Assembly (NCBI RefSeq): GCF_026410285.1
Contig: NZ_JAPMLP010000009.1
Location: forward strand, 1 to 64,000
Source of the DNA: Sulfitobacter sp. F26169L
GTDB taxonomy: Bacteria > Pseudomonadota > Alphaproteobacteria > Rhodobacterales > Rhodobacteraceae
DNA length: 64,000 nt
Direction: 5' to 3'
Shown: piece after piece, positions 47,076 through 56,943 of the stretch
Layout of the letters: each line of letters begins with the position of its first letter
Numbering within the stretch: position 1 is the stretch's first letter
Program-made: the position numbers and the translations under genes
Notes under the pieces: model-generated
The model's input: only the letters and a program-made list of their open reading frames with translations
Told to the model about the DNA's origin: nothing
Database searches by the model: none

Positions 47076-47858
47076 TTACCCCGCCAGACCGGCGGCGCGC
47101 ACCTGGCCCACCAATTCCGCAACCCGTTCGGCGTTGTCAGCGGCGGTGCCGCCATCGGCGTTCTTGCGGTTGTTTTCAAAACCGATACGCGCTTTGCCAC
47201 CGTGGCGCATCGCCTCGATCAGGCAGGCGGTTTCCTGTGGTCCAAAGGCGCAGGCCGACCAATCCACATCCGGCAGCGCGGCTGTGAGGGTGGTGGCAAG
47301 AGCGGCCACGTCTGCGGGGCTGCTGACCTGCCCCGTTGTATAGCGCCCCAGAACAATCAGCGCGGTAAGGTTAGCACGCGGCACATCCCCGCGCGCGACC
47401 AGACGGGCAAGATGGGCAACATCACCGGCATCATAGAGGATATGTTGCACACAAATTCCCGCCTCGGCGCAACTGGAAAAGAAACGGCGGGTGACCGCAT
47501 CATCCTGATCCGCCGTAATCTCGCGCAGGGCGATTGAAATCGCGGCGGGTTGCAGATCGTGAACCAGTTGGCGCTGCTGCGCAGGTGTGAACACGCCCGC
47601 CGCTTCGCTGGTGACCTGAACATAAAGATCGGGCGCGCGGTGTTTCAGTTCGGCCAGCAATTCGGCGTATAGTCCGGCATCCAGCACATGCCGCTGTTCA
47701 GCGTCACGAACATGGGCGTGCAGCCCGTCCGCGCCCGCCGCGTGGCAGGCAAGCGCGCAGGTGACGATTTCGTCAAGAGAGACGGGCAGGGCAGGGTGAT
47801 CGGCCTTGGTCAGCTTTGCGCCATTGGGGGCGACCATAATATTCGGCAGGCCCCTCAT
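47076..47858 (-). CDS. Beta-keto acid cleavage enzyme (BKACE, 3-keto-5-aminohexanoate cleavage family)
   Basis: TIM-barrel zinc enzyme of 260 residues (BKACE family, formerly DUF849). Metal-ligand histidines are in GADGLHAHVRD, and the third ligand Glu in ARIGFENNRK. The family condenses a beta-keto acid with acetyl-CoA to release acetoacetate and a new acyl-CoA. The natural substrates are many; lysine fermenters use 3-keto-5-aminohexanoate. The start overlaps the aminotransferase stop by four bases. An aminotransferase that makes a beta-keto acid directly upstream would fit well. Confidence 0.88.
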   Translation of the reverse strand: MRGLPNIMVAPNGAKLTKADHPALPVSLDEIVTCALACHAAGADGLHAHVRDAEQRHVLDAGLYAELLAELKHRAPDLYVQVTSEAAGVFTPAQQRQLVHDLQPAAISIALREITADQDDAVTRRFFSSCAEAGICVQHILYDAGDVAHLARLVARGDVPRANLTALIVLGRYTTGQVSSPADVAALATTLTAALPDVDWSACAFGPQETACLIEAMRHGGKARIGFENNRKNADGGTAADNAERVAELVGQVRAAGLAG

Positions 47859-49183
47859 GCCGCGATTGCCTTGGTGATGGCGGTGGACAGCTTGCCGACC
47901 AGTTCGTCAATCTGGGCGTCCTCAATAATGAAGGGCGGCGCAAGCAAGACGTGATCGCCGTGCTGCCCGTCGATGGTGCCCGACATGGGGTAACAGATCA
48001 GGCCGGCGGCAAAGGCTTCTTTCTTAATCCGTGCCGCGATGGTGCGCTTTGGGTCAAAGGTGGCTTTTGTGTCGCGGTCTGTGACCAGCTCGATACCACG
48101 GAACAACCCGCGCCCGCGGATATCGCCCACGTGGGGGTGCTGGCCGAATTGCGCGCGCAGGGCGACGTCAAGCTTTTCGCCCTGTTCGCGCACCCGCGCC
48201 AGTAACCCGCCGTCAAGGATTTCGCCCAACACCGCATTGGCCGCCGTGGCTGCCAATGCGTGACCCATATAGGTGTGACCGTGCTGGAAAAATCCGCTGC
48301 CGGCGGCAATCGCGTCATAGATCCTGCCCGTGGTCAGCAGCGCACCAATCGGCTGATAACCCGCGCCCAGACCTTTGGCGATTGTGATCATGTCCGGCGC
48401 AACGCCGTCTTCTTCGCAGGCAAACAGATGGCCGGCACGGCCCATGCCGCACATCACCTCGTCAAGGATCAGCAGCACACCGTAGCGGTCGCAGATCTCG
48501 CGGGTGCGTTTGAGGTATCCGGGCACGGCAGGCACTGCACCCGCTGTCGCGCCGACGACAGGTTCGGCCATAAACGCCATGACGGTTTCGGGGCCAAGGC
48601 GCAAGATTTCTGTTTCCAGCTCATCCGCGACGCGCTGGCCGTAGGCCTCCTGCGTTTCGCCATCGCCACGGTCGCGGTATTCATAGCAGGGGCTGATGTG
48701 GGTGGTATCGGCCAGCAGCGGTGCAAACTGGGTGCGCCGCCATGCGTTGCCCCCCGCCGCCAGCGCGCCCAGTGTGTTGCCATGATAGCTCTGGCGGCGC
48801 GCGATGACGCGGTGGCGGTCGGGCTGCCCGATCTCGAGGAAATACTGGCGTGCAAGTTTGATCGCAGCCTCAACCGCCTCTGACCCGCCGGAGACAAGAT
48901 AGACGCGGTCGATCCCGTCAGGCGCGTTTTCAACCAGACGGTCGGCCAGTTGTTCAGCGGGTTCAGAGGTGAAAAAACCCGTGTGCGCAAAGGCGACTGT
49001 GTCAATTTGTGCATGAAGTGCGGCGCGCACGGCGGCATTGGAGTGACCCAGACAGGACACCGCCGCACCGCCGGAGCCATCGAGATAGCGGCGCCCGTCG
49101 GTATCTATAAGGTAACACCCGTCACCCTGTGCGACGACAGGCAAACTGCCTTTGGTGGATCGACCGAAGATATGGCTGCTCAT
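47855..49183 (-). CDS. Class III PLP aminotransferase (first copy)
   Basis: Omega- or beta-amino-group aminotransferase of 442 residues. RVYLVSGGSEAVEAAIKLAR and RRQSYHGNTLGALAAGG bind PLP phosphate; LLILDEVMCGMGRAGHLFAC holds the Asp that contacts the pyridine N; MITIAKGLGAGYQPIGALL carries the PLP lysine. The start at 49183 has AGGA nine bases upstream; an earlier frame opening at 49237 would add an 18-residue leader. It is first in a two-gene operon with the BKACE enzyme and divergent from the RpiR regulator. Confidence 0.92.
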   Translation of the reverse strand: MSSHIFGRSTKGSLPVVAQGDGCYLIDTDGRRYLDGSGGAAVSCLGHSNAAVRAALHAQIDTVAFAHTGFFTSEPAEQLADRLVENAPDGIDRVYLVSGGSEAVEAAIKLARQYFLEIGQPDRHRVIARRQSYHGNTLGALAAGGNAWRRTQFAPLLADTTHISPCYEYRDRGDGETQEAYGQRVADELETEILRLGPETVMAFMAEPVVGATAGAVPAVPGYLKRTREICDRYGVLLILDEVMCGMGRAGHLFACEEDGVAPDMITIAKGLGAGYQPIGALLTTGRIYDAIAAGSGFFQHGHTYMGHALAATAANAVLGEILDGGLLARVREQGEKLDVALRAQFGQHPHVGDIRGRGLFRGIELVTDRDTKATFDPKRTIAARIKKEAFAAGLICYPMSGTIDGQHGDHVLLAPPFIIEDAQIDELVGKLSTAITKAIAA

Positions 49184-49240
49184 GCTGTGCGTCCTGATTT
49201 TGCGGGGCGGCCCGTTCTGGGAATCGCGCGATTGCATTGA

Positions 49241-49260
49241 AATAATGCATATGTATTATT
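49241..49260. promoter_or_regulatory. Candidate RpiR operator, AATAATGCATATGTATTATT
   Basis: Twenty-base near-palindrome with a single mismatched base pair (position 7 against 14) in the divergent region between the aminotransferase and RpiR genes. It is AT-rich in GC-rich surroundings and suits a regulator dimer. Confidence 0.55.
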
Positions 49261-49324
49261 CGAATTGACGAAAAAACGCAAATGGTTTATCTGCATGGCT
49301 GCGGATGTGGAGCGTGCGGGATTT

Positions 49325-50182
49325 ATGGACAAGGCAGAAGAGCTAAAGCAGGGGCTGGCGCGGCTGGGCGTCGAGGGCACACCGGCTTTGCGCGCCTTTG
49401 CGCCTTGGGTGCTCGACAATCTGGCGCTGGTTGCGTTTCATTCGATCCGGGGGTTGGCAAAGCAGGCAGGAGTGAACCCCAACACTGTGACCCGTTTGGC
49501 GCGCGAGCTGGGTTACGCCGGGTTTGACGCGCTGCGCACGGACGTTCAGGCGATGCTTCATACGGGCGAGCCGACCTATGGAGAACGCGCACGCAGCCTG
49601 CGCACCCAATCGGATGGCGGCGCGTTTTCCGCGATGATGGCGGCGCACCGGCAGAACACCGATGCCCTTTTTGCGCCCGAAACGTTGGCTGTTTTGGGTG
49701 ATTGTGTCGCGCCGATGCTGGCGGCGCGCCGTATCCATACTGTTGGGGTGCGCAGCTGCTATTCCATCGCACATTACTTTTCCTATGTCGGCGGCATGGC
49801 GTTTTCCAACTTTGCCGATGTGCCTTCGTTGCCGGGGGGGATCGTTGACCAGATGTCACAGGTCACGGCGGACGATATCGTGGTTGCGATTACCTATGCG
49901 CATTATTCATCCGAGGTGGTACGCGCCAGCGAAGTGGCGCGGGGCAATGGCGCGCGTATTCTGGCGCTGACCGACAGCCACGCTTCGCCCATTGCGATTG
50001 GCGCGTGGAAGGTGCTGCGCCTGCCAATGGCGGGGCCGCATTTCATGCCGTCGCTGAACTCGGCCTTTCTGGCGGTCGAAATGCTGCTGGTGGGTATGGC
50101 CGCGCAATCGGACGGGGCGGCGGAAAATGTCACCGCGTTTGAGGAACGCATACGCAAGTACGGCGGATATTTCGGGCGCTAA
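49325..50182 (+). CDS. MurR/RpiR family transcriptional regulator
   Basis: Regulator of about 285 residues. The N-terminal RpiR helix-turn-helix reads VAFHSIRGLAKQAGVNPNTV and TRLARELGYAGFDALRTDVQ; the C-terminal SIS domain (from about residue 110) includes ARRIHTVGVRSCYSIAHYFS, DDIVVAITYAHYSSEVVRAS and RILALTDSHASPIAIGA, which bind a sugar phosphate or similar ligand. The start is uncertain: TTG 49265 and ATG 49295 are open alternatives. It probably controls the divergent aminotransferase-BKACE operon and perhaps the second catabolic gene set. Confidence 0.9.
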   Translation: MDKAEELKQGLARLGVEGTPALRAFAPWVLDNLALVAFHSIRGLAKQAGVNPNTVTRLARELGYAGFDALRTDVQAMLHTGEPTYGERARSLRTQSDGGAFSAMMAAHRQNTDALFAPETLAVLGDCVAPMLAARRIHTVGVRSCYSIAHYFSYVGGMAFSNFADVPSLPGGIVDQMSQVTADDIVVAITYAHYSSEVVRASEVARGNGARILALTDSHASPIAIGAWKVLRLPMAGPHFMPSLNSAFLAVEMLLVGMAAQSDGAAENVTAFEERIRKYGGYFGR

Positions 50183-50185
50183 CGG

Positions 50186-51031
50186 TCAGGGTGTACGGGA
50201 CAGGGGGCTGTCATAGCTGTCTCTGATGTCTTTCAGAAAGGTATAGTCGCGGCGTGCATCGCTGATGTGGTGCTGGTTGACAGTGACAAAGCGGAAATCT
50301 TCGCCGTGTTCGTCAAACCGCAGCGGCCCCTGTGTTTCGTCCATCCACGGATAGCAAAATAGGGAGTCGCCGTAATCCGTCCCTGCGCGGTTGAGCGAGA
50401 GCAGAAAGCACTGGTTTTCAACAGCGCGGGTCATGGCAAAGGCGTGCCACATGTGAAAGGAACGATCCCTGAAATTGGCAACGCTGTGCAACAGGATATC
50501 AACGCCGTGTTTCAACACTAGCGTCCGCGTCAGCTCGGGAAATCGGATATCATAGCAGATGATCGGGGACAGGGTGAAACTCTTCACCTTGAAGGTAAAC
50601 AAATGATCGCCGGTGATGAAATACTCTTTTTCCATCGACGCGCCGTATTGGCACAGGTGCAGCTTGTCATAGTGACCGGCAAGCGCGCCGTCGGGTGTGA
50701 CAACACCGATCGAGATATACGCGCCGCTCGCGTCCTTTCTGGCGAAGCCGAAGACAACATGAACGCCGAATTCCGTGGCAACGGATTGCCATGTCCGGAA
50801 GGAGGCCCCCTCCCGCGGCTCTGCTATTTCCTCGAGGTGGTCGAATGCCGCGCGGGAATAATCAATGCTGGACAGTTCGGGCAAAACCACCAGATCGGCC
50901 GTCTGCGTGCGAAGCTGCTGGCGCACTTTCGCTGCGATGGCGGCAAGGTGCCCGTCGCGCGCGGCGGCGCTCGTGGTGTGCGGTATGTCGATCTGGCAGG
51001 CCAGAAGCGTCAGGGTGTCTTGCTGTGTCAT
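50186..51031 (-). CDS. Carbon-nitrogen hydrolase (nitrilase superfamily amidase)
   Basis: Hydrolase of 281 residues with the full catalytic triad: Glu in LVVLPELSSID, Lys in GHYDKLHLCQYG, Cys in PIICYDIRFPELTR. This branch holds amidases such as omega-amidases and N-carbamoylputrescine amidases rather than true nitrilases. AGGT lies before the ATG at 51031. It ends three bases from the rpiR stop and is divergent from the second aminotransferase. In this block it may remove an amide or acyl group, which is inference. Confidence 0.88.
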   Translation of the reverse strand: MTQQDTLTLLACQIDIPHTTSAAARDGHLAAIAAKVRQQLRTQTADLVVLPELSSIDYSRAAFDHLEEIAEPREGASFRTWQSVATEFGVHVVFGFARKDASGAYISIGVVTPDGALAGHYDKLHLCQYGASMEKEYFITGDHLFTFKVKSFTLSPIICYDIRFPELTRTLVLKHGVDILLHSVANFRDRSFHMWHAFAMTRAVENQCFLLSLNRAGTDYGDSLFCYPWMDETQGPLRFDEHGEDFRFVTVNQHHISDARRDYTFLKDIRDSYDSPLSRTP

Positions 51032-51255
51032 GGGCTACCTTTCAGCGGTCGGCAATTGCGGGCGGAGCAAACACCCCCGCTTGATGCGGCCTCTTAGCAC
51101 AGCCTGCAAAAGAAACGGTGCAAAAATTTTCGCGACCGAGGTGCGACCCGTAAAGCATCTTCCGCTGGGTTTGCGGCAAAAAACGTCGGTGTTGCACTTG
51201 CGCATTGATGAAATCGCACGGAAGCTTGGGCACGGCGACCCTGAAAGGACATCGG

Positions 51256-52590
51256 ATGAAATCGTCAAACCTGTTTTATCAAACCCGTGCGCGCCGCCCC
51301 GAGGTCGAGCGGGCGGAGGGGGTCTATATCTGGGGCAACAACGGCGAGCGTTATATTGACGGATCGTCCGGCGCGATGGTCAGCAATATCGGCCATTCAA
51401 ACCCCAATGTTCTGGCCGCGATGAAGGCGCAGATGGACAGCGCGACATTTGCCTACAGGTTGCATTTTGAAAACAGCGCGGCAGAGGATCTGGCCAGCGC
51501 CATCGCCCAGCGTATGCCCGCAGGATTGAACCGCGTGTTCTTTGTCTCGGGCGGGTCCGAAGCGGTGGAATCCTGCGTAAAGTTCGCGCGTCAGTGGGCC
51601 GTTGCATCGGGGCAGGAAAGCCGCTGGAAAGTGATTTCACGCTTTCCTTCCTATCACGGATCGACGTTGGGTGCGCTGGCGATCACGGGATATGGCCCGC
51701 TGACGGATGTGTTTACGCCGCTGTTCACTGCCATGCCGAAAATCGCGGCTCCCACCTGTTATCTGGACCGTGACAACCTGAGTGATCATGCGCGCGGATT
51801 GAAATATGCAGAGCTTCTGCGCGACGAGATTATCGCTCAGGGCCCCGAAACGGTGATGGCTTTTGCCATGGAACCTGTGGGCGGTGCGTCAACCGGCGCG
51901 CTGGTGGCGCCGGACAGCTATTACACCCGCATTCGCGAAATCTGTGATGAATTCGGCATACTGCTGATCATGGACGAGGTGATGTCGGGCGTAGGGCGTA
52001 CAGGCAAATTCATGGCGTCCGAGCATTGGAATATCCGCCCCGATCTGGTGGCCGTGTCCAAGGGATTCGGTGCGGGATATGCCCCGCTGGGGGCGATGAT
52101 TGCCGATCAGGGCATGGTAGAAACGGTGCTTGATGCGGGCGGTTTTGCCCATGGCCACACCTATGCGGGAAATCCGCTGGCGTGTAGTGCGGGCCTTGCC
52201 GTGCTGGGCGAGATCGACCGCCTTGATCTGCTGTCCAACGCCGCCGCGATGGGGGATCACCTCATGCTGGGTCTGAGCGATCTGATGGCGCGCTACGATT
52301 TCATCGGTGATGTGCGCGGCAAGGGATTGCTGGCCGCCTTCGAGATGGTCGCGGACCGCGAAACGATGGAGCCGCTGCCAAAAAGCCTGAACGCCTACGA
52401 CCGCTTTGTCGAAATCTGTTATACGCGCAATCTGATCACCTATTCACGCCGCACCCGTGGCGGGATCGAGGGGGATCATTTCCTGATCTGCCCGCCAATG
52501 ATTGTGACCGCGCCGCAGGTTGATGAGATTCTGAATATTCTTGATGACAGTCTGAACGTGTTCGCGCGCGAAGCGGGGCTGGCGGGGTGA
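51256..52590 (+). CDS. Class III PLP aminotransferase (second copy)
   Basis: Aminotransferase of 444 residues, similar in plan to the first copy but clearly distinct. RVFFVSGGSEAVESCVKFAR, RFPSYHGSTLGALAITGYG, LLIMDEVMSGVGRTGKFMAS and LVAVSKGFGAGYAPLGAMI hold the PLP contacts, with the Lys in the last. The start at 51256 has AAAGGA upstream; a longer frame exists. Two such enzymes in one block suggest two amino groups or two successive steps. The deacetylase gene follows 53 bases later. Confidence 0.92.
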   Translation: MKSSNLFYQTRARRPEVERAEGVYIWGNNGERYIDGSSGAMVSNIGHSNPNVLAAMKAQMDSATFAYRLHFENSAAEDLASAIAQRMPAGLNRVFFVSGGSEAVESCVKFARQWAVASGQESRWKVISRFPSYHGSTLGALAITGYGPLTDVFTPLFTAMPKIAAPTCYLDRDNLSDHARGLKYAELLRDEIIAQGPETVMAFAMEPVGGASTGALVAPDSYYTRIREICDEFGILLIMDEVMSGVGRTGKFMASEHWNIRPDLVAVSKGFGAGYAPLGAMIADQGMVETVLDAGGFAHGHTYAGNPLACSAGLAVLGEIDRLDLLSNAAAMGDHLMLGLSDLMARYDFIGDVRGKGLLAAFEMVADRETMEPLPKSLNAYDRFVEICYTRNLITYSRRTRGGIEGDHFLICPPMIVTAPQVDEILNILDDSLNVFAREAGLAG

Positions 52591-52642
52591 GGTGCCTGTG
52601 TGGATCACCCGCCCGACGCGCAGATAAGGTGGAGTTAAAGAC

Positions 52643-53680
52643 ATGAAGGTTTTTGCAGATCAGCAGCGGCAAAGCAGGCACTACCCCACGGGGTTTCTGG
52701 TTAACGGCGTGATGCAGCCCAACCCCGAAAAACCCGAGCGTATGGCACGGTTGCTGGCCGGTGTTGCCGCGGGCGGTCACGAGGTGAGTGCGCCACAGGA
52801 TCACGGACCTGGCCCGATCTCGGCGATCCATACACCTGCCTATCTGAAATTCCTGTCTACGGTTTTCGCCCGCTGGAGCCGCATCCCCGATGCCGCGCCG
52901 GAAATTTTTCCCAACGTCCACCCCGACAGACGCACCGCCAGCTATCCGTTGTCGGTGGTAGGGCAGGCGGGATTTCACATCACCGATATGTCTTGCCCGA
53001 TTGGTGAACACACGTGGGAGGCGGCGCGCTGGTCGGCCAATTGCGCGGTGAGTGCGGCCGACGCTGTGGCACGTGGCGAGAAGGCCGCCTATGCGCTGTG
53101 CCGCCCCCCCGGACATCACTGTTTCAGCGATTTGGCGGGAGGTTTTTGTTACCTTAACAATTCAGCCATCGCGGCACAGTATTTGCGACGTACTTGTGAC
53201 CGGGTTGCGATCATCGATGTTGATCTGCACCACGGCAACGGCACGCAGGGCATATTTTATGCGCGCGACGATGTGTTTACCCTGTCCATCCACGCCGACC
53301 CCGCGCGGTTCTATCCGTTCTTCTGGGGGCACGCCCATGAAACCGGCGAGGGGACGGGGCATGGGTATAACCTGAATATTCCGCTGCCGCGCGGCACGGG
53401 GGATGACGGATTTTTGCGCGGGCTGACCGATGGTCTGGACCACGTTAGGGCGTTTGTCCCCGATGCGGTGGTGGTCGCCCTCGGGCTGGATGCGTTTGAG
53501 GGTGATCCGTTCGGGGGGCTGTCCGTTTCAACCAAGGGCTTCGCGGAAATCGCGCGGGTGCTGGCGGCGCTGGATTTGCCGACCGTGATCGTTCAGGAAG
53601 GCGGATACCTGTGTGACGCGCTTGGCGATAATCTGGATTCTTTCCTGCGCGGGTTTGAGGGCAGGGCAGCGCAAGCGTAA
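52643..53680 (+). CDS. HDAC-like deacetylase (acetylpolyamine amidohydrolase family)
   Basis: Zinc-dependent deacetylase of 345 residues. The tandem catalytic histidines are in CRPPGHHCFSD; zinc ligands are in AIIDVDLHHGNGTQGIF and LGLDAFEGDPFGG; VQEGGYLCDALGDNL ends the site. Bacterial members remove acetyl groups from acetylpolyamines or similar N-acetylated amines. It lies between the second aminotransferase and a TRAP transporter, which would suit an imported N-acetylated compound. Confidence 0.92.
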   Translation: MKVFADQQRQSRHYPTGFLVNGVMQPNPEKPERMARLLAGVAAGGHEVSAPQDHGPGPISAIHTPAYLKFLSTVFARWSRIPDAAPEIFPNVHPDRRTASYPLSVVGQAGFHITDMSCPIGEHTWEAARWSANCAVSAADAVARGEKAAYALCRPPGHHCFSDLAGGFCYLNNSAIAAQYLRRTCDRVAIIDVDLHHGNGTQGIFYARDDVFTLSIHADPARFYPFFWGHAHETGEGTGHGYNLNIPLPRGTGDDGFLRGLTDGLDHVRAFVPDAVVVALGLDAFEGDPFGGLSVSTKGFAEIARVLAALDLPTVIVQEGGYLCDALGDNLDSFLRGFEGRAAQA

Positions 53681-53904
53681 ACATGCGCAGGCGTATGGTT
53701 GGGTGAGACGCATAACAACCTGACAGGCTTTGAAAATATAGATGCAAAATAGAGCCTTAGCCAGCCATATCGTCTCGCTTCCACTGGAAGGAGAAAAAAA
53801 TTGCGGCTTGCAGATTATTTCCCTAGGCTGAAAAAATTCACAAACGGGCTGCGCGCTGACGTGCGCGCGAAGCCTGATAAAAAAAGCTCAAGGGAGAGTA
53901 TTCG
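53681..53904. promoter_or_regulatory. Leader of the third TRAP operon
   Basis: About 220 bases before dctP, AT-rich around 53750-53840, with a hairpin GCGCGC-tgacgt-GCGCGC at 53851-53868. The ribosome site GGGAGAG stands just before the dctP ATG. Confidence 0.4.
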
Positions 53905-54909
53905 ATGAATTTCACAGCAATAACCAAAATTCTGACGGTTGGTGCGGTTAGCGCGCTGATGTCGACAGCGGCGTTCGCGCAAGACAAGACGCTTCGCTTT
54001 GCGGGGGTATTCCCGATCGATCACCAAGGCACGAAGATGATGAATCAGGTGGCGGCGGATGTTGCGGCGGCGGATGTCGGCCTGACCATCGAGGTGTTTC
54101 CGGCAAATCAGCTGGGATCGGGCGAAGCGCTGTTTGAAGATGTCGCGCGTGGCAATATCGACCTTGCGGGCGCGTTTATCTACGCCGACACCGATCCGCG
54201 CCTTGAGTTTCTGTCGATGCCCTTCCTTGTGGGCGGCTGGGACGACATGAACAACATCATGCGCAATATGGAGTCCGAATATAACAAGATTCTTCAGGAA
54301 CTCACCGATGAATATGGCGTAAAGGTATTGGCCCAGAACCCCGAAGGATTTGTCGGCATCGTCGCTACCAAAGAGCCGACGAACTGGAACAACTTCGATG
54401 ACAAAGGCATGAACATCCGCGTCTGGTCGTCCAACATTGTGAAATCAATGGTTGAGGATTTCGGTTTTCAGGCCACGACAATGGCGTGGGGCGATATTTT
54501 CCCCGCGATCCAGTCGGGCATTGTGGATGGCGCGATTTGCTGCACCAAAACGGCGACCTACTCCATCTTTGCGAAATCCGATGTCGGGACGCATTTTGTC
54601 CAGTACAACGCCATTTCCGAGCTGACGACGTTCTACGCGTCACAGCGCACACTGGACAAGCTGAACGATGAACAGCGCGAGGCGCTTCAGGCGGCGATGA
54701 CAAAAGCCTCCGATGATTTCTTTGCCTACAACCGCGAAAGCGATGCGGAGTTCGAGGCGAAGCTGGTTGAAAGCGGCTACACCATTCTGGCGCTGAGCGA
54801 CGAAGAGCAGGAAAAATTCGCCGCCCGTGCGCGTGAAAAAATTTGGCCAATGATGGCCGACTCGGTCGGTGATGAAATCATCAACCGCCTGATGTCTGCA
54901 TCCGACTAA
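53905..54909 (+). CDS. TRAP transporter solute-binding protein DctP (third system)
   Basis: Periplasmic DctP-type protein of 334 residues with a signal peptide (VGAVSALMSTAAFA, cut before QDKT). FPANQLGSGEALFEDVARGN, LSMPFLVGGWDDMNNIM and the Arg-containing GMNIRVWSSNIVKSMVEDFG identify the family; an Asp-Gly in GIVDGAICCTKTATYS lies in the ligand cleft. The ligand should be a carboxylate; the cluster suggests an N-acetylated amino acid. A terminator-like hairpin follows. Confidence 0.92.
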   Translation: MNFTAITKILTVGAVSALMSTAAFAQDKTLRFAGVFPIDHQGTKMMNQVAADVAAADVGLTIEVFPANQLGSGEALFEDVARGNIDLAGAFIYADTDPRLEFLSMPFLVGGWDDMNNIMRNMESEYNKILQELTDEYGVKVLAQNPEGFVGIVATKEPTNWNNFDDKGMNIRVWSSNIVKSMVEDFGFQATTMAWGDIFPAIQSGIVDGAICCTKTATYSIFAKSDVGTHFVQYNAISELTTFYASQRTLDKLNDEQREALQAAMTKASDDFFAYNRESDAEFEAKLVESGYTILALSDEEQEKFAARAREKIWPMMADSVGDEIINRLMSASD

Positions 54910-54916
54910 GCAACGC

Positions 54917-54951
54917 AAACAGGGGCCGGTAATTTATAGGCCCCTGTTTTT
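54917..54951 (+). terminator. Hairpin with T-run between dctP and dctQ (third system)
   Basis: AAACAGGGGCC pairs perfectly with GGCCCCTGTTT over an 11-base loop, then TT. The stem is strong and lies directly after the binding-protein stop, in the same place as the hairpin at 36539. Confidence 0.8.
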
Positions 54952-54988
54952 ACGTTCTGGAACATTGCGGATGACAGGGGGCGCGGGC

Positions 54989-55606
54989 ATGTCGCAAATC
55001 ACACAAGATGAACTGCCAACATACATCGGAGAGGACGAACCTCCGGGAGCGATGAAGATCACCGAGGAGTTACCGGCGTTTATCGGCAAGCCGATGGAAT
55101 GGATACTTGTGATCATGAAGCTGATCACCACGGTGTCGGGCTTTGTGATGGCGTTTACCTTCGGCGCTGTTGTGGTCATCCGCTACGGTTTCGGGGGCGA
55201 TCTGTTTGCCTATGAGGAATGGTTGCTGGCGTTCAGCATCGTGGGGTTTTTTGCCGGTGCGGTTCTGGCGTCCGAGCGCAAGTTGCACATCAACGCCGAT
55301 ATCCTTGGCATCATCATCGAAAACCCTCGCCTGATCTGGTGGCGCGAATTTGTTGTGCTGACGATCGAGGTGCTTGTGATCGTCTTTATCGTTTATGCCT
55401 GCTACGTTTCGCTGCTGGATGATTTTTCGTTTCCGCGCCTGCGCTCCACTCCTGTTTTGCGTATTCCGTTTGTATCATGGCGCATCGCGATCATGATCGG
55501 ATTCAGCCTGATGGCGATGTTCACGGCGGCCTATCTTTATGTCCATATCCGTAAGGGGCTTGGCCTGCCCTTGAAAACGGATGCCAAGAAGGAAGCCGCG
55601 AAATGA
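54989..55606 (+). CDS. TRAP transporter small permease DctQ (third system)
   Basis: Membrane protein of about 205 residues with four helices after a 40-residue soluble leader (ITQDELPTYIGEDEPPGAMK). The helices run from MEWILVIMKLITTVSGFVM to IAIMIGFSLMAMFTAAYLYV. The start at 54989 has AGGGGG upstream; an ATG at 54971 is possible. It overlaps the large permease gene by four bases. Confidence 0.88.
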   Translation: MSQITQDELPTYIGEDEPPGAMKITEELPAFIGKPMEWILVIMKLITTVSGFVMAFTFGAVVVIRYGFGGDLFAYEEWLLAFSIVGFFAGAVLASERKLHINADILGIIIENPRLIWWREFVVLTIEVLVIVFIVYACYVSLLDDFSFPRLRSTPVLRIPFVSWRIAIMIGFSLMAMFTAAYLYVHIRKGLGLPLKTDAKKEAAK

Positions 55607-56895
55607 TCATTACCGGAAGCCTTCTTATCGTCTGTTTGATGCTGCTGCTGGGTGTCAGCGTCTATGTCGCGTTCGGATCGGTGCTGATATTTATTGCGCT
55701 CGTGGGGGACCAATCTATTTCGGGCTATCTGCCCACCGGTGCCACGGGCATACGGTCGCTGGTTTTGCTGGCGATTCCGTTGTTTATGATTGCCGGTGGT
55801 ATTATGGAAAAAGGCCGGATCGCCGCACCGCTTGTGGCGCTGGCAGAGATGTTCATCGGCCACATCAAAGGCGGGTTAAGTGCGGCGGGCGTTCTGGCCT
55901 GTGGTATCTTCGGCTCCATCTCGGGCAGTGCAAATGCAACGCTGACCTGCATCGGCGGCATTATGATGCCGCATCTGAAAAGGGCGAACTATCCTGTCGG
56001 CCAATCGGCGGCGCTGATTGTGTCGGCCAGCCCGCTGGGCCTGCTGATTCCGCCCAGCTCCTCACACATTCTCTATGGCTGGGTTGCGCAGCAGCACGTT
56101 TTGAAATGCTTTTTGTCGACGGTTATTCCCGCGATCATCCTGATCACGCTGTTGATCATCACCAACCAGTTTATGCTGCGCAAACATGACAACATCAAAC
56201 TGTCAGAGCGGCCTTCACCTTTTTTGCCCGCGTTCGGGCGGCAGGGCCGTCTGGCCGGTCCGGCGCTGATGATGCCGATCATTATTCTGGGCGGTATCTA
56301 TGGCGGCATCATGACCCCGACCGAAGCCGCAGGCATTGCCGTTGTATATGCCATTCCGGTTGCGATCTATTTTTACAAAGGTCTGACGTGGAAAACACTG
56401 TCACAGACGATCTGCCAGTCGGGCATCACCATCGGTGTGGTCATGGCGATGATCTTTATGGTGCTGATCGTATCGGACAACCTGATTGCACAGGGCGCGC
56501 CAAAGCTGGCCAAGGATATGGTTTATTCCGTTTCGGACAACCCGATTGTGATCCTGCTGATGATCAACGTTGTGATGATCCTGATCGGCATGCTGATGGA
56601 TGATATTTCAGGGCTGCTGCTGGCAACGCCGATCCTGTTACCCATCGCGCAGAGCGTCGGTGTCGATCCGATCCACTTTGCTGCGATCATCGGTGTAAAT
56701 CTTGGCATGGCAAACATCACGCCGCCTACAGCGCCGTTACTGTATCTGGGCGCGCAGATTTGTGATGTGCCGGTGTCGCGCATGCTGTGGCCCACGCTGG
56801 TGTTTATTGTGTTTGCATGGCTGCCCACGCTGATGCTGACCACGTTTATACCGGAGCTGGCCCTGTTCTTGCCCGATCTGTTGCTCGGCAAATAA
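55603..56895 (+). CDS. TRAP transporter large permease DctM (third system)
   Basis: Membrane protein of 430 residues with about 12 helices. Signatures are LVLLAIPLFMIAGGIMEKGR, CGIFGSISGSANATLTCIGG, ASPLGLLIPPSSSHILYGW and GIMTPTEAAGIAVVYAIPVA. It overlaps dctQ (ATGA) and ends before a terminator at 56917. Confidence 0.95.
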   Translation: MIITGSLLIVCLMLLLGVSVYVAFGSVLIFIALVGDQSISGYLPTGATGIRSLVLLAIPLFMIAGGIMEKGRIAAPLVALAEMFIGHIKGGLSAAGVLACGIFGSISGSANATLTCIGGIMMPHLKRANYPVGQSAALIVSASPLGLLIPPSSSHILYGWVAQQHVLKCFLSTVIPAIILITLLIITNQFMLRKHDNIKLSERPSPFLPAFGRQGRLAGPALMMPIIILGGIYGGIMTPTEAAGIAVVYAIPVAIYFYKGLTWKTLSQTICQSGITIGVVMAMIFMVLIVSDNLIAQGAPKLAKDMVYSVSDNPIVILLMINVVMILIGMLMDDISGLLLATPILLPIAQSVGVDPIHFAAIIGVNLGMANITPPTAPLLYLGAQICDVPVSRMLWPTLVFIVFAWLPTLMLTTFIPELALFLPDLLLGK

Positions 56896-56916: not shown

Positions 56917-56943
56917 AGACGCCCGAAGCGGGGCGCCTTTTTT
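56917..56943 (+). terminator. Rho-independent terminator of the third TRAP operon
   Basis: AGACGCCCG-aag-CGGGGCGCCT stem with one mismatch and one bulge, followed by six T residues. It lies 22 bases after the dctM stop. Confidence 0.8.

Follow-up and report, generated by a model that had tools for sequence, protein, structure and literature searches.

The stretch of Sulfitobacter sp. F26169L DNA that we analysed, 64,000 nucleotides long and referred to here as the window, carries between positions 47076 and 56895 a block of genes that the original prediction had joined into one pathway for N6-acetyl-beta-lysine or another N-acetylated beta-amino acid. The genes that it named – a TRAP uptake system, two class III aminotransferases, a DUF849 protein, an HDAC-like deacetylase and an amidase – are indeed there, and every named gene clears the Pfam cut-off of its family. 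On the minus strand lie a gene for a 260-residue protein with the fold of the beta-keto acid cleavage enzymes (BKACEs), which we call DUF849′ (47076–47858; PF05853, 1.6e-51), and the class III aminotransferase AT1 (47855–49183), which scores above the cut-off of the NCBIfam model PRK07483 and contains the lysine motif for pyridoxal phosphate (PLP); the predicted overlap was borne out, the start of DUF849′ and the stop of AT1 sharing four bases (ATGA). Divergent from AT1, on the plus strand, is a MurR/RpiR-type regulator with HTH_6 and SIS domains (49295–50182, longest frame from 49265), and we refer to these three genes as module A. The amidase, NIT, is a carbon-nitrogen hydrolase of the CN_hydrolase family (50186–51031, minus strand; PF00795) with the Glu, Lys and Cys motifs present. 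Beyond it, on the plus strand, lies module B, which comprises a second class III aminotransferase, AT2 (51256–52590), 42% identical to AT1, identified by Pfam and by its PLP lysine motif and proposed here as a transaminase of N-acyl-beta-amino acids, in particular N6-acetyl-beta-lysine, and, 52 bases further on, an HDAC-fold N-deacetylase of the acetylpolyamine amidohydrolase type (52643–53680; PF00850; match to 3men at 6e-98). The TRAP genes, also on the plus strand, encode the solute-binding protein DctP (53905–54909; PF03480), the small permease DctQ (54971–55606, longest frame from 54965; PF04290) and the large permease DctM (55603–56895; PF06808). Because the block falls into four strand runs (minus, plus, minus, plus), it is not a single operon. 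Its parts were examined in related genomes.

Module B belongs to a family of operons that recurs among these relatives. In a sample of 295 family genomes, the host's own included, AT2 (at E ≤ 1e-150) was found in 59 and HDAC (at E ≤ 1e-110) in 67; 34 genomes contain both (odds ratio 8.4, p 3e-11), and in all 34 the two genes lie within 6 kb of each other. Operon types were assigned for the best 30 of the 59 AT2 loci. Leaving the window aside, ScoA–ScoB lies downstream of AT2 in 19 of these (type I) and a canonical BKACE in 10 (type II), with no locus having neither. HDAC is within 6 kb of AT2 in 10 of the 10 BKACE genomes and, at E ≤ 1e-110, in none of the 19 ScoA–ScoB genomes; the 16 type I regions that were read all have an M20 deacylase of the ArgE/DapE type, and eight of them a thiolase. 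The type II order AT2–BKACE–GNAT–HDAC was read directly in L114, L127 and L201–L205, with differing ABC systems upstream; Phyllobacterium zundukense provides a named example, as Alisedimentitalea scapharcae does for the type I order AT2–ScoA–ScoB–M20. Among 29 HDAC loci outside the window that were inspected with short flanks, a canonical BKACE was found upstream in 23, a GNAT alone in one (L168) and neither in five, and six of the BKACE-bearing loci (L157, L158, L165, L166, L174 and L179) gave no GNAT match.

A tree of 37 AT2 proteins shows the two types clustered yet interleaved (the type II locus L088, for example, sits within a type I clade), and its well supported branches force at least three changes of type, which may represent one gain and two losses. 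The two cassettes swap around related AT2 genes, and, as these are two unrelated enzyme sets that both combine the breaking of a 3-keto acid with the removal of an N-acyl group, they point to an N-acylated beta-amino acid as the substrate. The one canonical operon BKACE that was scanned passes a 3,5-dioxohexanoate-type model, and the uptake proteins beside AT2 resemble the Lys/Arg/Orn-binding subfamily, the two that were scanned falling below its cut-off, or, weakly, PotD. Two further features of these operons were observed. Many of the ABC transporter operons linked to AT2 contain a creatininase-family hydrolase (L111 11464–12255, and other AT2 loci), an enzyme that may serve for ring opening where the substrate occurs as a lactam or in cyclic form. 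Several type I operons close with genes for an M20-type amidohydrolase and for a protein like alanine racemase (L123 13111–15443; L224 12162–14437, from A. scapharcae), a pair that possibly handles the other enantiomer.

In order to define the company kept by module A, we collected homologues of DUF849′, which were found at 42 loci from named genomes and, at E ≤ 1e-20, in 80 of the 295 family genomes, own included. The context set comprised 58 loci, 42 of them in named genomes and 16 in family genomes; contig ends cut a few of these short, and certain loci may come from the same species. AT1 (at least 55% identity) is present in 41 of the 58, a TAXI-type binding protein in 28, its fused TRAP permease in 26, Usp in 26 and RpiR (at least 35%) in 19, and weaker aminotransferases of the same class (34–35%) occur in L057–L059, L064 and L141; AT2, HDAC, NIT, DctP, canonical BKACE and ScoA were found, at the thresholds used, in none. 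The arrangement RpiR/TAXI/TRAP/Usp/AT1/DUF849′ recurs across much of this set, the genes of Thalassospira marina are the same but differently ordered, and the divergent RpiR–AT1 layout of the window is also seen in L130. The best-matching relative, G005 (DUF849′ 74%, AT1 88% and RpiR 68% identical), has DUF849′–AT1–RpiR and AT2 on separate contigs (3 and 7, respectively). Across the 295 genomes, DUF849′ shows no association with AT2 (19 genomes with both, odds ratio 1.36, p 0.33) or with HDAC (15 genomes, odds ratio 0.72, p 0.35), and in the 19 genomes with both DUF849′ and AT2 the two are on different contigs in 14, 75 to 357 kb apart in three and within 10 kb in two. These contexts tell against the single pathway of the original prediction, which includes a transamination of 4-aminobutyrate (GABA); given its presence in 41 of the 58 loci, AT1 is more likely the partner of DUF849′ than a GABA transaminase in that route.

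Some DUF849′ loci have other surroundings. In L046, L072 and L138 the gene lies, without AT1, beside a flavin reductase and a Gfo/Idh/MocA oxidoreductase (assigned by clustering); L046 and L138 also hold an alpha/beta hydrolase and OsmC, and L046 a luciferase-like monooxygenase, a context that may represent another, oxidative pathway feeding a DUF849′-type enzyme. In L060–L063, L065 and L067, from Puniceispirillum-like and other alphaproteobacterial metagenome-assembled genomes, DUF849′ is divergent from panB/panBC-like genes with no AT1 near; these neighbours were identified by Pfam in L060 and by clustering in the remaining loci.

The residues of the DUF849′ protein itself set it apart from the cleavage enzymes. 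The window protein scores 175.7 bits against PF05853 (cut-off 24.8), and we aligned it and its homologues to the reference enzyme Kce from Cloacimonas (2y7d), dropping proteins with less than 36% identity, those outside 235–330 residues and copies, which reduced 83 proteins to 63 distinct members, the window's included. The zinc ligands His46, His48 and Glu230 are kept in all 63, as is Arg226, and Tyr145 is Tyr in the window protein and in 60 of the 63. The catalytic Glu expected of a BKACE is missing, the position of Glu143 being occupied by Ile in the window and in 62 of 63 members and by Ser in one; the expected Asp is missing too, Asp231 being replaced by Asn in 63 of 63. The position of Glu14 – in Kce, we assume, the residue that binds the substrate amine – holds Arg in 52 members, Thr in five, Lys in the window protein and Tyr in one, and is not reached in four. 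In the window's own numbering, K15, I140 and N229 correspond to E14, E143 and D231 of Kce. In addition, Glu85, Glu113, Gln138, Cys203 and Glu209 are invariant in DUF849′ members and differ from the residues of Kce. As a control we took 34 canonical BKACE rows from AT2 or HDAC loci, 25 of them distinct, of which three end before position 14 and one lacks the His positions; Glu143, Tyr145, Arg226, Glu230 and Asp231 are retained in 25 of 25, and all 22 that reach the Glu14 position have Ile there, a residue that would suit a neutral acetamide side chain. In BKACE15 of P. denitrificans, Glu171 is described as the proposed base and the Glu171Leu mutation as abolishing activity (PMC11961710), and from the pairing of Tyr145 with Tyr173 given for BKACEs in PMC12871164 we infer that Kce Glu143 corresponds to this residue.

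The AlphaFold model of DUF849′ (predicted local distance difference test score, pLDDT, 94.3) has Kce (2y7e, 25% identity) as its top fold match in the PDB; closest in fold are proteins of DUF849, with identities of 20 to 25%, followed by cis-epoxysuccinate hydrolase and ObcA, whose chemistry is other than that of a BKACE. The BKACE models of NCBIfam match all 33 aligned DUF849′ members, with the window protein far below every cut-off. The groups described by Bastard are reported to include some proteins with decarboxylation activity and others that are no BKACEs (PMC4922564). We conclude from the aligned residues that DUF849′ is probably not a normal BKACE but a protein that has kept the zinc site, lost the catalytic Glu and turned to different chemistry; the role of cleavage enzyme that the original prediction gave it is hard to sustain with Glu143 replaced by Ile and Asp231 by Asn and with the gene belonging to the other module. 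Because it follows AT1 or, in L057 and Microvirga, a gene resembling 3-hydroxyacyl-CoA dehydrogenase, DUF849′ probably still has a beta-keto acid as its substrate; that this is an anionic one is suggested by the basic residue at the Glu14 position. As a speculation to which we give little credence, DUF849′ could be a zinc enzyme with new, CoA-independent chemistry, such as decarboxylation, on an anionic beta-keto acid, for instance 3-oxoglutarate, with AT1 producing this from the osmolyte beta-glutamate and the neighbouring amidase supplying that from beta-glutamine; if so, it would reveal an undescribed beta-glutamate/beta-glutamine route, with TAXI-TRAP or Gln-type uptake serving the relatives. 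Plasmid records label members of this subfamily as 3-keto-5-aminohexanoate cleavage protein, a label that is very likely wrong, and the mislabelling matters for annotation and may conceal a new reaction.

The TRAP system of the window is rare, occurring (at E ≤ 1e-80) in nine of the 295 genomes, own included. Its nearest relative, in L192 (DctP, DctQ and DctM 80, 74 and 90% identical), lies beside the omega-aminotransferase AptA, methylmalonate-semialdehyde dehydrogenase (MMSDH) and alanine dehydrogenase, a gene company of beta-alanine type, and a relative in L195 beside hydroxyproline epimerase and trans-3-hydroxyproline dehydratase, all five enzymes exceeding their NCBIfam cut-offs; by analogy, this gene context suggests that the window TRAP carries small zwitterionic amino acids. 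NIT is also rare (five of the 295 genomes at E ≤ 1e-60, own included), and at one locus (L146 925–8849) relatives of the window DctPQM and of the amidase are found with two FAD oxidoreductases, one of them of the DAO type, and with a different RpiR. In view of this rarity and this company, the amidase need not belong to the predicted pathway. After DctM there is a terminator-like hairpin with a T-run (56920–56935, plus strand), which is only suggestive: terminator-like sites in the region number 12, compared with 12.3 in shuffled sequences, and neither promoter nor terminator counts there exceed those of the shuffles. Rfam and tRNA scans of the window gave no matches.

We read the block, with a probability of roughly 0.55, as two adjacent catabolic modules, of which A (AT1 and DUF849′, with RpiR) acts on another substrate and B (AT2–HDAC, followed by TRAP) belongs, in reduced form, to a widespread family of operons for N-acylated beta-amino acids, the most likely substrate being N6-acetyl-beta-lysine. 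By analogy, the TRAP system would import this zwitterion, a step for which the case is fair, and with such import a GNAT would be needless. AT2 would transaminate the beta-amino group to give the beta-keto acid 6-acetamido-3-oxohexanoate, which in type II relatives the canonical BKACE would break, taking in acetyl-CoA and releasing acetoacetate, to 4-acetamidobutyryl-CoA; in type I relatives the breakage would fall to a CoA-transferase, in some loci joined by a linked thiolase. The HDAC-fold enzyme, or the M20 deacylase in type I, would then strip off the acetyl group, leading to 4-aminobutyrate. The original idea of an N-acetylated beta-amino acid pathway thus survives for AT2 and HDAC, on the strength of the relatives' operons, and perhaps for the TRAP system, but probably not for the BKACE-fold protein.

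Several observations weigh against this reading. In the window operon no canonical BKACE or other beta-keto acid cleavage system follows AT2, and no GNAT lies between AT2 and HDAC; the gene set therefore does not account for each step, as had been claimed for it, and either genes outside the operon supply the cleavage or the route is incomplete. The 3.9-Mb host genome has only two PF05853 genes, DUF849′ and one on contig 24 (L150 6046–8950), and the latter we rejected as the missing cleavage enzyme: it is two genes from a carnitine 3-dehydrogenase and hence most likely a dehydrocarnitine enzyme, in a host that probably uses carnitine. Elsewhere in the same genome are a ScoA homologue, 39% identical to the type I ScoA, and a ScoB-like neighbour, a pair that may be a source of the cleavage. 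The gap of 224 bases between HDAC and DctP means that the TRAP genes may be a separate unit. The operon family also has its irregularities, as a GNAT is present in eight of the 10 type II loci but in only three of the 19 of type I, HDAC is absent from the type II locus L129, which has a GNAT, and the HDAC loci L152, L153, L159, L175 and L178 lack both BKACE and GNAT upstream. With regard to lysine, the beta-lysine acetyltransferase model of NCBIfam was not listed for the two GNATs scanned. The window's genome gave no match to the KamA family (TIGR00238), and a KamA-family gene is present in 10 of the 59 AT2 genomes (seven over the cut-off), the nearest being about 27 kb from AT2 (G280), so that lysine is brought in by analogy with the yod genes of Bacillus. 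Finally, DUF849′ lies within 10 kb of AT2 both in the window and in G010, and another residue could replace Glu143, whose loss was judged from the alignment.

These last points bear on the reading in which the whole block serves one N6-acetyl-beta-lysine pathway, its DUF849 protein doing the cleaving and one of the aminotransferases acting on 4-aminobutyrate. The genes are physically close, the DUF849 gene being 3.4 kb from an AT2 operon that itself lacks a cleavage gene, and in G010 a DUF849′ copy (L225 4361–4666, contig 3) likewise lies 5.7 kb upstream of AT2. However, the G010 copy is only a fragment of 102 residues, matching residues 132–233, without AT1, and it lies across a LysR gene from a complete AT2–BKACE–GNAT–HDAC operon with its own canonical BKACE; two genes at the start of that contig resemble what we take to be an IS21-type transposase pair. 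Given the state of this fragment and the separation of the genes elsewhere, it is exceptional for them to lie as close as in the window. The modules are on different contigs in G005 and are found together in none of the 58 other DUF849′ loci, the catalytic Glu and Asp are lost across the subfamily, and Lys15 at the side-chain pocket would suit an anion better than an acetamide, all of which makes the one-pathway explanation improbable.

Two other explanations concern module B itself. It is possible, although we doubt it, that the substrate of the module is not beta-lysine but a different N-acyl-beta-amino acid, such as an N-acylated compound resembling beta-ornithine, or an acid derived from polyamines: its HDAC is closest to acetylpolyamine amidohydrolases, the uptake protein beside AT2 in L203 is weakly PotD-like, and AT2 has no KamA nearby. 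However, the beta-keto acid systems in all 29 of the other best AT2 loci require a 3-keto acid, and transamination of N-acetylputrescine or N-acetylspermidine yields none, which counts against a polyamine substrate. It is rather unlikely that AT2 and HDAC in the window form a decaying remnant beside an unrelated amino-acid TRAP system. The absence of canonical BKACE and GNAT and the longish branch of the window AT2 (0.43, compared with a median of 0.15) would fit such an explanation, and decay of the cleavage step does occur, since in an AT2–GNAT–HDAC operon of Rhizobium sp. CB3171 (L223 6974–10274) a BKACE-like piece of about 69 residues lies between AT2 and GNAT. However, both window frames are intact, AT2 with its PLP lysine motif and HDAC with its PF00850 domain and all of the zinc, His-His and Tyr motifs; the best PDB matches are 3I4J for AT2 and, for HDAC, 3men (331 bits, near full length). 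In addition, L168, which is also reduced and has no BKACE, keeps AT2–GNAT–HDAC.

The degradation of beta-lysine in Pseudomonas (EC 2.6.1.65, EC 3.5.1.51) was reportedly worked out by Barker and colleagues, whose enzyme measurements are said to date from the early 1980s. The route consists of acetylation, transamination, cleavage and deacetylation, and we know of no gene assigned to the N6-acetyl-beta-lysine transaminase or to the 4-acetamidobutyryl-CoA deacetylase. The type II operon of the relatives matches the route in the order acetyltransferase, transaminase, acetyl-CoA-dependent cleavage and deacetylase, whereas the window holds only the transaminase-like and deacetylase-like genes. No published description of the AT2-type gene set was found among the matches listed in the open-licence literature, and the AT2–BKACE–GNAT–HDAC and AT2–ScoAB–M20 operons would provide candidate genes for every step of beta-lysine breakdown in ordinary bacteria. 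N6-acetyl-beta-lysine is described as a zwitterionic osmolyte of methanogens (PMC1224877). Such operons would link these osmolytes, and other sources of beta-lysine, to their consumers.

A second comparison is with the yod–kamA region of Bacillus subtilis. The type I relatives are like it in having a class III aminotransferase, a CoA-transferase, an M20 deacylase and, in some loci, a GNAT, but unlike it in that no KamA lies within 20 kb of AT2 in the 59 genomes; the window differs further, with HDAC in place of the M20 deacylase and uptake genes in place of the mutase. KamA (BSU19690) and YodT (BSU19740) are given as five tags apart and both SigE-dependent, and 3I4J, the best match of the window AT2, is listed as a solved relative of YodT (PMC6522883). 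With the BKACE family (Kce, 2y7d; BKACE15, 8rip), DUF849′ shares PF05853, the TIM-barrel fold, the zinc ligands, Arg226 and Tyr145, but it has Ile for Glu143/171, Asn for Asp231 and a basic residue at position 14. The window HDAC, in turn, has the fold and the motifs of the acetylpolyamine amidohydrolases (3men, 6phr and 9gkz), from which it differs in that the operons of its relatives hold beta-keto acid enzymes.

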